A stretch of 36,952 nucleotides of DNA from IMG/VR virus record IMGVR_UViG_3300006927_000024, positions 1-36,952 of that record. One strand, 5' to 3'. A program made the translations under genes and the position numbers. The notes beneath the pieces were generated by a model, which saw nothing but the letters and a program-made list of their open reading frames with translations, had not been told where the DNA came from and searched no databases. Below, piece after piece: positions 23,459-25,469 of the stretch (position 1 is the first letter of the stretch; every line of letters begins with the position of its first letter). Source of the DNA: a virus.

Positions 23459-23540
23459 TAATATATATATATATACTATATATAAGCTATATATATATAG
23501 ATAAGTCTTTAGAAGACTTATCTATCTCTTTATATATATT
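23459..23540 (-). other. AT-rich element: TA tract plus 13-bp perfect hairpin
   Basis: In the gap between the small-terminase and holin-like genes, a nearly pure alternating TA tract (about 23459-23498) runs into a perfect inverted repeat: 23497-23509 pairs with 23513-23525 (stem core AGATAAGTCTT, loop TAG). The flanks are poor in G and C. The tract should melt or extrude easily. Possible jobs are an intergenic mRNA processing or attenuation site, a DNA-unwinding element, or part of a packaging-initiation site next to the small terminase. The sequence does not choose between them. Confidence 0.6.
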
Positions 23541-23578: not shown

Positions 23579-24085
23579 CTAAGCCATGCCCCCCTTCTCG
23601 TTCAGTATCTCATTCACCTGATCTATAGCAGTTTTGTCTTTCTTATCATTCGATACATCCGAGTCAGTATCCGAGTCCTTAGCGAGTGATCTTAGTTCCT
23701 TGAGTACATCCTTAGCTGTGTCGTTGTCTACCATCACTGTCGGCCTGTACTTAGTCGGAAGATTAGCATTCAGCAGAGTGATGAGCAAGATCGGATTCGA
23801 CTTAGCGTCCTGTATCTTAACTCGATCTAGAGCTAACTGCTCTAACGACTCACAGAACTGTATATCAGCTTCATCTAGTCTCTCCATGAAACCAAAGTAG
23901 TTCTCCTTCTGCCACTTCATGACCGTCCTATACTTAACACCAGCATACTGACAAGCTGTCGTCTTACTTCTAGTCTCAACGTAGCATGAAAGAAACTTAT
24001 CCTGCAGTCTCCAGCTACGTTTTTGACTAGGGCTAAGTGCTTTGTAGGTATCCTCAGTCTTGCTGTCGATTCTAGTAACTAGCAT
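23579..24085 (-). CDS. terS: Terminase small subunit
   Basis: 168 residues, first gene of the leftward block; ATG preceded by AAGGGG. Residues about 25-60 hold a helix-turn-helix of terminase type: QDKFLSCYVETRSKTTACQYAGV followed by KYRTVMKWQKENYFGF. Then comes the oligomerisation helix region (MERLDEADIQFCESLEQLALDRV) and the segment NPILLITLLNANLPTKYRP, a pattern common in small terminases of this type. The C-terminus is charged and Asp/Lys-rich (SDTDSDVSNDKKDK) and could contact the large subunit. It would bind the packaging start on the concatemer; such sites often lie in or near terS, which makes the structured region just upstream a candidate. Family assignment by helix pattern and context with terL. 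Confidence 0.8.
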   Translation of the reverse strand: MLVTRIDSKTEDTYKALSPSQKRSWRLQDKFLSCYVETRSKTTACQYAGVKYRTVMKWQKENYFGFMERLDEADIQFCESLEQLALDRVKIQDAKSNPILLITLLNANLPTKYRPTVMVDNDTAKDVLKELRSLAKDSDTDSDVSNDKKDKTAIDQVNEILNEKGGMA

Positions 24086-24234
24086 TCTAGACCCCTTGAC
24101 CTAGCGGTACTCCGCTAGGTTGATTCACCTCTGGTCACTTTGTGACCAACTGAGCAATTTCGCTAATGGTACACCAGATACGGAGTATCTGTCGAGACAT
24201 TAGAATCGGAAATCGAACATTCGTTCTGGGTCAT

Positions 24235-24286
24235 CCCCCTCCCCAAAGAAAGAGCATTCAAACCCCTCCCCCTAGTCCCCCTCCCC
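24235..24286 (-). other. Potential G-quadruplex / mirror-repeat triplex element
   Basis: On the plus strand 24263-24286 is four C-runs of 4, 5, 5 and 4 separated by T, TAGT and T, so the minus strand has four G-runs with loops of 1, 4 and 1 base. That satisfies the usual G-quadruplex rule with room to spare. The same block is a near-perfect mirror repeat around TAGT, the geometry for intramolecular triplex DNA. A further pair of C-runs (5 and 4, separated by T) stands at 24235-24244. On the minus strand this is the non-template strand for terS and the template strand for the early block. Whether it folds in vivo cannot be told from sequence. Confidence 0.65.
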
Positions 24287-24299
24287 TCGGGGACATCCT

Positions 24300-24353
24300 A
24301 CCCCACTGCGGTCTCTTAGTGTCAACGAAGTTGACACAGAGACCTGGTGGGGT
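24300..24353 (+). other. Three-tier nested hairpin in the early leader
   Basis: Outer stem ACCCCAC (24300-24306) with GTGGGGT (24347-24353), middle stem GGTCTCT (24310-24316) with AGAGACC (24338-24344), inner stem GTGTCAAC (24319-24326) with GTTGACAC (24330-24337), apical loop GAA. The interior loops are only two to three bases. With 22 pairs it is the most stable leader structure before the first early gene. No T-run follows, so it is not a terminator on the plus strand. Confidence 0.75.
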
Positions 24354-24456
24354 GGTCGGATGGTGTCGGCAATTTCTCCGACATCGGATGGCTCCAAAGG
24401 AGCCATAAGCCACTGACCAAAGGTCAGTAGGGTAGCCACCAAAGGTGGCAAAGGAG

Positions 24457-24471
24457 TTAGGCTATGCCTAA
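24457..24471 (+). promoter_or_regulatory. Hairpin enclosing the start codon of the 126-aa gene
   Basis: TTAGGC (24457-24462), loop TAT, GCCTAA (24466-24471). The ATG (24464-24466) lies across the loop and the first stem base; the ribosome site GGAG (24453-24456) ends directly before the stem. If formed in mRNA it would leave the Shine-Dalgarno open but could hold the start codon, so it may tune initiation. Confidence 0.6.
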
Positions 24472-24844
24472 GATCGGAAAAGCGAAGCTAGCGAAGCTAG
24501 GACTGGGGCCAGACGGCAAGCTGAAAGTCGGAGACTTTCTAGCTTGGTGGCTAGACCCCAAAAACGGCAAGGTAGGTGAAACCTACCTTGACAAAGCAAC
24601 TGGCACAGAGAGAAAGACGAAGTCTTTCCACTCTGTGCTATCAGGCTTCAACGAAGCCTGTGGCCTCTACTACGACCTTGACACCAAAGGTGTCATTGCC
24701 CTGACCAATGAGGCTGAGGCCAGAGGCCTCATCAAGATTCGCCCCACCAGAGGTGGGGTCAAGGGAGTCCGCATCAGTCTACCGACTGATGGAGGATCAA
24801 GAGGCATCTCAGCACTAGCTGAGATGGGCTTAGCTCCTAGCTAG
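24464..24844 (+). CDS. 126-aa early protein encoded within the hairpin array
   Basis: First gene of the rightward block; GGAG eight bases before the ATG, stop TAG inside a 9-bp stem. The N-terminus is basic and repetitive (MPKIGKAKLAKLGLGPDGKL), from a 9-base tandem repeat. The core (WWLDPKNGKVGETYLDKA, then KSFHSVLSGFNEACGLYYDL, then GLIKIRPTRGGVKGVRISLP) looks like a small alpha/beta nucleic-acid-binding or winged-helix-type fold; the FHSVLSGFNEA-to-RGGVKGVRI order reminds me of a recurring phage/marine microbial domain, from memory only. It carries thirteen or more perfect hairpins, for example the codons of GFNEA form an 8-bp stem. The protein still reads as a normal globular sequence, so synonymous positions seem to serve the stems. 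Function unknown. Confidence 0.72.
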   Translation: MPKIGKAKLAKLGLGPDGKLKVGDFLAWWLDPKNGKVGETYLDKATGTERKTKSFHSVLSGFNEACGLYYDLDTKGVIALTNEAEARGLIKIRPTRGGVKGVRISLPTDGGSRGISALAEMGLAPS

Positions 24845-24864
24845 GCTCTGCCTAGCTAGACACT

Positions 24865-24905
24865 AGCCCCTAGCGGTAGCTAGCTACCGCTAGGGGCTTT
24901 TCTTT
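24865..24905 (+). terminator. Strong intrinsic terminator after the 126-aa gene
   Basis: A 16-bp perfect stem (24865-24880 with 24883-24898, core GCCCCTAGCGGTAGC) with loop TA, followed by TTTTCTTTT. Classic intrinsic terminator for rightward transcription. It cuts the first early gene off as its own short transcript or attenuates entry into the rest of the block. Confidence 0.9.
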
Positions 24906-24959: not shown

Positions 24960-25406
24960 ATGCCTAAAGCAAGTACAAAATTACGAATCCCTAACTGGCT
25001 AGAAGCCAAGGAACCATGCCTACAGTGTGGGATGCCAACTAGGCTGGCTATTCATGATCCGAAGGATCAAAAGCAAGTGCATATATGCTCTGACAATTGC
25101 CAGACAAACTATGCCCTACAGGTAGGGCACATTAGCTACAACCAAGTAAGAGACCATGATAGCCCGATGAAGTTTGAATCAATCGGCAAGCTAAACGAGC
25201 TAAGTGCTGATGAGATCAAGAACAAGTTTAAGTTTAAACACAAACTAACTACGTCTCAAATGAACAGGAACAAACAAGGCGATCCACTAGATCGCATGTT
25301 CAAAGCGATGGGATTGAGGTTACCCAAGAACAAAAGACGCAAGAACATCAGCACTAGGATGCCATTCACATACACAATAGACGAGGTAAAGGAATTGCCT
25401 TGGTAA
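24960..25406 (+). CDS. Early zinc-finger protein (148 aa)
   Basis: ATG preceded by AAGGAAG. Residues about 17-50 form a treble-clef-like zinc site: EPCLQCGMPTRLAIHD with C20-x2-C23, then HICSDNCQTNYAL with C43-x3-C47. The rest is basic and helical (SADEIKNKFKFKHKLTTSQMNR, then LPKNKRRKNISTR), suited to DNA or RNA binding. It is enclosed by two intrinsic terminators (24865-24905 and 25431-25469), so it probably has its own promoter in the 24906-24959 gap. Scattered perfect hairpins continue inside it: 25055-25069 (6 bp, GAA loop), 25112-25129 (8 bp) and 25279-25295 (6 bp). Likely an early regulatory or host-takeover protein; exact target unknown. Confidence 0.65.
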   Translation: MPKASTKLRIPNWLEAKEPCLQCGMPTRLAIHDPKDQKQVHICSDNCQTNYALQVGHISYNQVRDHDSPMKFESIGKLNELSADEIKNKFKFKHKLTTSQMNRNKQGDPLDRMFKAMGLRLPKNKRRKNISTRMPFTYTIDEVKELPW

Positions 25407-25430: not shown

Positions 25431-25469
25431 TAGGGCTATGGTAGCTGAGTACCATAGCCCTATTTTTTT
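25431..25469 (+). terminator. Intrinsic terminator after the zinc-finger gene
   Basis: A 13-bp perfect stem, TAGGGCTATGGTA (25431-25443) with TACCATAGCCCTA (25450-25462), loop GCTGAG, followed by seven T. Strong intrinsic terminator on the plus strand. It overlaps an in-frame ATG at 25438, which argues that the next gene starts later, at 25498. Confidence 0.92.

Follow-up and report, generated by a model that had tools for sequence, protein, structure and literature searches.

Dense perfect hairpins across the divergent leaders and first early gene of a double-stranded DNA phage

Results

Organization of the locus

The window, that is, the whole stretch of DNA analysed (36,952 nucleotides), is IMG/VR record IMGVR_UViG_3300006927_000024, a possibly incomplete virus record without end repeats. 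No similar DNA was found in named phages, and its TerL is distant, sharing about 25% identity with those of actinophages and with other terminases. The region of interest lies between terS, which is the first gene of a leftward structural operon and the left border of a hairpin array, and the early genes, which run rightward from the right side of the array:

23579..24085, minus strand: terS, small terminase (PHROG 4044, E 7.9e-8), kept in all relatives
24099..24191, no strand: left part of the array, terS leader, with hairpins 24099-24120, 24132-24148 and 24175-24191
24239..24266, no strand: conserved element, consensus CCCTTAAAGAAAGATCATTCAAATCCC (leader alignment, pattern search)
24275..24449, no strand: right leader, that of ORF126, with hairpins at 24275, 24319, 24364, 24388, 24412 and 24435
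24450..24466, plus strand: ribosome-binding site AAAGGAG between two hairpins, with the loop of hairpin 24457-24471 carrying the start codon; lineage B is arranged alike
24464..24844, plus strand: ORF126, first early gene, with nine hairpins of stem at least 6 in the CDS
24837..24859, no strand: hairpin spanning the ORF126 stop codon
24865..24898, plus strand: intrinsic terminator, a 15-bp stem followed by TTTTCTTTTGT, right border of the array

Relatives were found through terL and terS, and ORF126 is conserved together with terS in them, with homologues in at least 10 related lineages. We refer to these as A (window, L001, L002), B (L004 and others), C (L014), D (L025), E (L028), F (L059), G (L054), H (L050), I (L065) and J (L066). 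Bacterial and archaeal genomes yielded no relatives by terS or ORF126. Searches of Pfam and PHROG gave no match for the ORF126 protein. Fold searches with its predicted model (pLDDT 73) pointed to winged-helix DNA-binding proteins at weak scores (Foldseek E no better than 0.07, VIA Z no higher than 7.0), and on this basis it is probably a winged-helix protein. Its ribosome-binding site is unpaired, between two hairpins, in lineages A and B. A long-range pairing of this site with the end of ORF126, seen in an RNA fold, was set aside, as it seems by eye to be absent in lineage B.

The conserved element, of about 27 nt, occupies the only hairpin-free gap in the array (about 24192-24274). By leader alignment, CCCTTAAAGAAAGATCATTCAAATCCC is present in nearly all relatives, although lineage F and the partial locus L062 show no clear copy; a pattern search found it in 15 contigs. 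The element also occurs in L083, L085, L086, L089 and L091, where the stretch searched holds no ORF126 homologue. The purine bias of the linkers flips at the element, and no convincing sigma-70 promoter was found there. We regard it as a probable divergent control site. Since array-poor relatives keep terS beside the same element, packaging would at least not need the array.

Elsewhere in the window, a second early gene (24960-25406) is conserved and carries four cysteines (CxxC ... CSxxC), and its product is likely a zinc-binding protein; it is followed by a strong terminator (25431-25462). A PEP-utilising-enzyme mobile domain (PF00391, 25900-26238) and a PPDK_N ATP-binding domain (PF01326, 29099-29890) lie in separate genes, as if a PEP-synthase-like enzyme had been split. 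A 2929-residue protein (8494-17283, minus strand) is probably a large polyvalent virion protein; it contains a HEISH zincin motif and matches BPP-1 Bbp10-type proteins over a short stretch.

Density of the array

We counted 22 non-overlapping perfect hairpins across 24099-24898 (stem at least 5, loop 3-8), with stems of 5-15 bp and mostly 3-nt loops. Stems account for 340 of the 800 bases (42%), to which compound stems add more; hairpin 24319, for example, is the core of a compound hairpin at 24303-24353. Segments of 800 nt hold 16-18 stems of at least 6 in the array, 7 where they overlap its edges and 0-5 everywhere else. Dinucleotide shuffles gave 0.57 hairpins in the leader and 0.49 in the CDS, compared with the 9 and 9 observed, and 0 of 300 reached the observed count in either half. 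The folding z-score of the whole region was -15.75 as DNA and -13.95 as RNA. Two 50-kb stretches of E. coli, used as a control, contained at most 4 hairpins per 800 nt (stem at least 7, loop 3-5).

The first-pass annotation had described a continuous run of about 23 perfect hairpins over these 800 bases, with stems of 5-16 bp that held about half of the bases. The perfect small-loop stems are indeed there, but the run is broken by the gap noted above, the longest stem is 15 bp, and the counted share is the lower one given here. Its placement of terS and a terminator on the two flanks agrees with our annotation, although it overlooked that half of the stretch (24464-24844) is protein-coding, and its statement that the density is unmatched elsewhere in the window is borne out by the segment counts. 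The hairpin listing likewise supports its description of the stems as mutually unrelated: no sequence is shared among them and the loops vary. Direct repeats are short and few, and CRISPR, REP or attC repeats were rejected for lack of a repeated or consensus unit. We also rejected an assembly or amplification artefact, because several contigs share near-identical arrays and other lineages carry different arrays at the same place.

Selection for pairing

In lineages A to E, RNA folding on both strands was better than in dinucleotide and codon-preserving shuffles (z -2.2 to -10.7), and equally strong on either strand. Codon-preserving shuffles of the sense strand folded worse than the native ORF126 CDS in all five lineages, a GORS-like behaviour (z -8.5 in A, -9.2 in B, -3.7 in C, -2.9 in D and -4.2 in E). 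In the protein alignment, loop centres fall at columns 25, 47, 70, 80, 93, 105, 119, 130 and 146 in lineage A, at 25, 34, 48, 67, 75, 93, 110, 130 and 146 in B, and at 32, 48, 69, 80, 121, 129 and 154 in F. These gave 11 coincidences within one column (p=0.0015), where circular shifts led to an expectation of 4.0; adding lineages C and E gave 17, where 9.3 were expected (p 0.011).

The arms at these places have been rewritten in pairs. Eight hand-picked homologous stems contain 14 double changes, all still Watson-Crick and 8 of them transversions. Since the choice was of perfect stems, this count describes the manner in which stems change and not the rate at which they break. At column 93, TGACACC-AAA-GGTGTCA is replaced by TGACAGC-AAA-GCTGTCA, so that Thr-Lys-Gly becomes Ser-Lys-Ala; the stem at column 130 differs throughout (CATCAGTC-TACC-GACTGATG and CTAGAATCTCTG-CATA-CAGAGATTCTAG). 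The terminator (24865-24898) shows a paired change from C-G to T-A in L002. Residue conservation in stems and outside them was 0.43 and 0.37 in A, 0.42 and 0.36 in B, 0.46 and 0.49 in C, and 0.46 and 0.36 in F. Stem residues are thus about as conserved as others, which argues against blind overwriting; only in lineage E, where the hairpins lie mostly in the variable N-terminus, are they less conserved (0.22 vs 0.42).

Because hairpin positions persist while both arms are rewritten and the protein is retained, selection was shown to be for pairing rather than for sequence. The first-pass annotation had proposed selection for structure and not a copied repeat, to be refuted if shuffled controls folded equally well or if relatives lacked paired changes. 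The native sequence was found to fold far better than dinucleotide and codon-preserving shuffles, and the relatives keep stems with double changes, some of which alter amino acids. The proposal is therefore upheld by codon-shuffle folding, by the rewritten complementary arms and by the conservation of stem residues.

A graded array in the relatives

With regard to hairpins of stem at least 6 in leader and CDS, respectively, the lineages hold 9 and 9 (A), 7 and 9 (B), 6 and 5 (C), 5 and 2 (D), 4 and 5 (E), 4 and 7 (F), 4 and 0 (G), 2 and 3 (H), 1 and 0 (I), and 0 and 0 (J), with shuffles near 0.3-0.9 for each half. The array is therefore graded, being dense in A, B and F, intermediate in C and E and absent in J, and relatives I and J live without it. 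In a further lineage (L080, L082, L084), ORF126 is present with four hairpins to the left of the element and none to the right. The left-part hairpins have homologous hairpins with rewritten sequence in L003/L004, the right leader of ORF126 has a hairpin in the same place in most relatives too, and hairpins at the end of ORF126 also occur in B, E, F, G and H. In the ORF126 tree, A, B and F group together (88/87), and C and E are unresolved among array-poor lineages. The lineages are few, and contig counts are not counts of independent observations, because some contigs may stem from repeated assembly of one set of samples.

Several further observations were made in these contigs. TGGTCAC-TTT-GTGACCA (24132-24148) recurs unchanged in the distant lineage G (L054, L056), where its flanks are different. 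Seven contigs (L045, L051, L053, L061, L062, L063 and L064) end within a few hundred bases upstream of terS, in or near the array; these may be genuine ends of the genome or points where assembly broke at hairpins. More distant terL relatives (L012:1-4009 and L016:1-6000, reverse complement) are without ORF126 and the array, and near that place encode a protein of about 305 residues that by eye looks like an ArdC-type antirestriction protein.

Form of the stems and signs of template switching

Across six lineages, we found 57 perfect stems of at least 7 pairs where 2.4 were expected. Near-perfect stems comprised 3 with one G.T (3.0 expected), 2 with one A.C (3.6) and 15 with other mismatches (11.1). 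As G.T stems occur only at chance, neither strand shows signs of tolerating wobble pairs. In a control of terminator-like hairpins from E. coli, a small set with many false members, 8 G.T stems were found to 14 perfect ones; rRNA offered too few comparable stems to serve as a wobble control. Triloops are closed by C-G or T-A in 30 of 33 cases, a bias that shuffles do not have, and none of 26 tetraloops is of the UNCG or GNRA type. In lineage A, 14 of the 19 stems of at least 6 carry 3-nt loops; the corresponding figure for B, whose loops are mostly of 4 nt, is 4 of 16. The composition skew switches at the array; the purine bias of the loops was discarded as a strand test, being weak beyond local composition.

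Two loop inversions were identified, the only ones with matching flanks in near-identical genomes, and both lie outside the array. In L001, the loop at 23497-23525 is changed from TAG to CTA with the 13-bp stem intact and one flank identical; in L002, that at 25431-25462 is changed from GCTGAG to CTCAGC, again with a 13-bp stem intact and with both flanks identical. Both match the pattern of template-switch hairpins, for which perfect stems, compensatory changes and loop inversions have been described in events scattered over RNA genes (PMC8794818). These three features are shared with our case, whereas here the hairpins are packed into a dense array that spans a protein gene as well as a leader. 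Template switching in DNA replication, in which one arm is copied from the other, would explain perfect stems, double transversions and inverted loops, and is likely the source of new and repaired stems.

Discussion

The reading that we hold most likely, tentatively and at somewhat under an even chance, is that the folding of the divergent leaders and of the first early mRNA is selected; from this structure we infer a function exerted mainly as RNA. It is preferred because the array is bordered by the start of terS and by the ORF126 terminator and leaves the ribosome-binding site free, features that agree better with an RNA role. The array covers the control region between the leftward terS unit and the rightward early unit as well as the whole of ORF126. 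On this reading, almost every base of the two divergent 5' leaders and of the ORF126 mRNA, as far as the terminator, would be part of a local fold, with the ribosome-binding site remaining open. The first phage mRNA would then be left with few single-stranded stretches, and we propose that this could confer resistance to single-strand-specific endonucleases or allow controlled translation.

The absence of a wobble excess and of UNCG or GNRA loops, together with the C-G-closed triloops, nevertheless looks DNA-like rather than RNA-like. Folding of equal strength on the two strands, and the existence of relatives (I, J) that do without the array, also speak against the RNA reading. The hairpins could act as DNA, either as cruciforms formed under negative supercoiling or as single-stranded hairpins at a control region or replication origin, where their shape would be recognized by a protein such as ORF126 or they would absorb supercoils. 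The strictly Watson-Crick stems, the DNA folding score (z -15.75), the skew switch and the hairpins on both sides of the conserved element all favour this, as do the triloops closed by C-G or T-A, whose form is that of N4 hairpins that extrude at physiological supercoiling (PMC4496689). We still consider it unlikely, although it is the main rival: the array passes through a gene and ends at the terminator of that gene, the skew also tracks gene direction, and no single-stranded stage, initiator or hairpin-binding protein has been demonstrated. Its more specific form, extrudable DNA minihairpins for which codons and even amino acids are bent and which act in supercoiled or single-stranded phage DNA, seems to us slightly more doubtful again. 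The same DNA-like features are also what template switching, itself a DNA copying event, would leave, and a hotspot for it near a replication start could make perfect inverted repeats that have no function. Perfect stems, small loops, double transversions and the two inversions fit such a by-product (PMC8794818), which is improbable all the same, as hairpins are equally dense in the coding sequence and in the non-coding leader, stem residues in four of five lineages are no less conserved than others, hairpin positions are kept across lineages, and half-decayed stems show almost no excess.

A close counterpart in form is the set of early promoters of N4, DNA hairpins with 5-7 bp stems and 3-nt loops (PMC4496689), and the short perfect stems with purine-rich, C-G-closed loops beside early genes are shared with our array; GAAAGTC-GGA-GACTTTC at 24523 even has a GGA triloop. 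It would be very surprising, however, if an N4-like virion RNA polymerase, possibly the 2929-residue protein, used the hairpins as its many promoters. The promoters of N4 number three and have conserved bases, whereas here 22 stems share no sequence, many of them lie inside a gene, and the loops vary in relatives, being mostly 4-nt in lineage B. The 2929-residue protein has neither a T7-type motif B nor a DFDxD motif, carries a zincin motif instead, and matches Bbp10-type proteins over only about 4%, with no polymerase match in the PDB. Among the proteins examined from this possibly incomplete record, none matched such a polymerase by motif, family or structure.

Folded transcripts, the reading that we favour, have a precedent in RNA viruses, where ordered RNA structure is pervasive and extends through coding sequence at genome scale. 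Pervasive local folding that is kept as the sequence changes is common to both, whereas here the host of the folding is a dsDNA phage, in which it involves a single gene together with its leaders, with simple small-loop hairpins and no wobble excess. Frpo, the ssDNA promoter in the leading region of conjugative plasmids, is a single folded promoter that acts in the transferred strand; it resembles our locus in placing hairpins in an early-entering control region, but ours is an array, with no evidence of ssDNA entry. The first-pass annotation could name no known element of this form, in keeping with which Rfam, whose structured RNAs include GOLLD, ROOL and riboswitches, gave no match to the array at gathering score; a tRNA search found none. 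No such array was found described in the open-access literature, which is not proof of absence.

The new part is pervasive folding of coding sequence in a dsDNA phage gene by strictly paired, small-loop hairpins. To our knowledge, a protein gene bent by self-pairing until its amino acids change in pairs is rare outside RNA viruses. The graded relatives, from no array to a full one, provide a natural experiment on how such hairpins originate and are kept up, and on whether RNA or DNA is their target. The array may also point to a means, so far unrecognised, by which phages protect or control the first transcript that they make.
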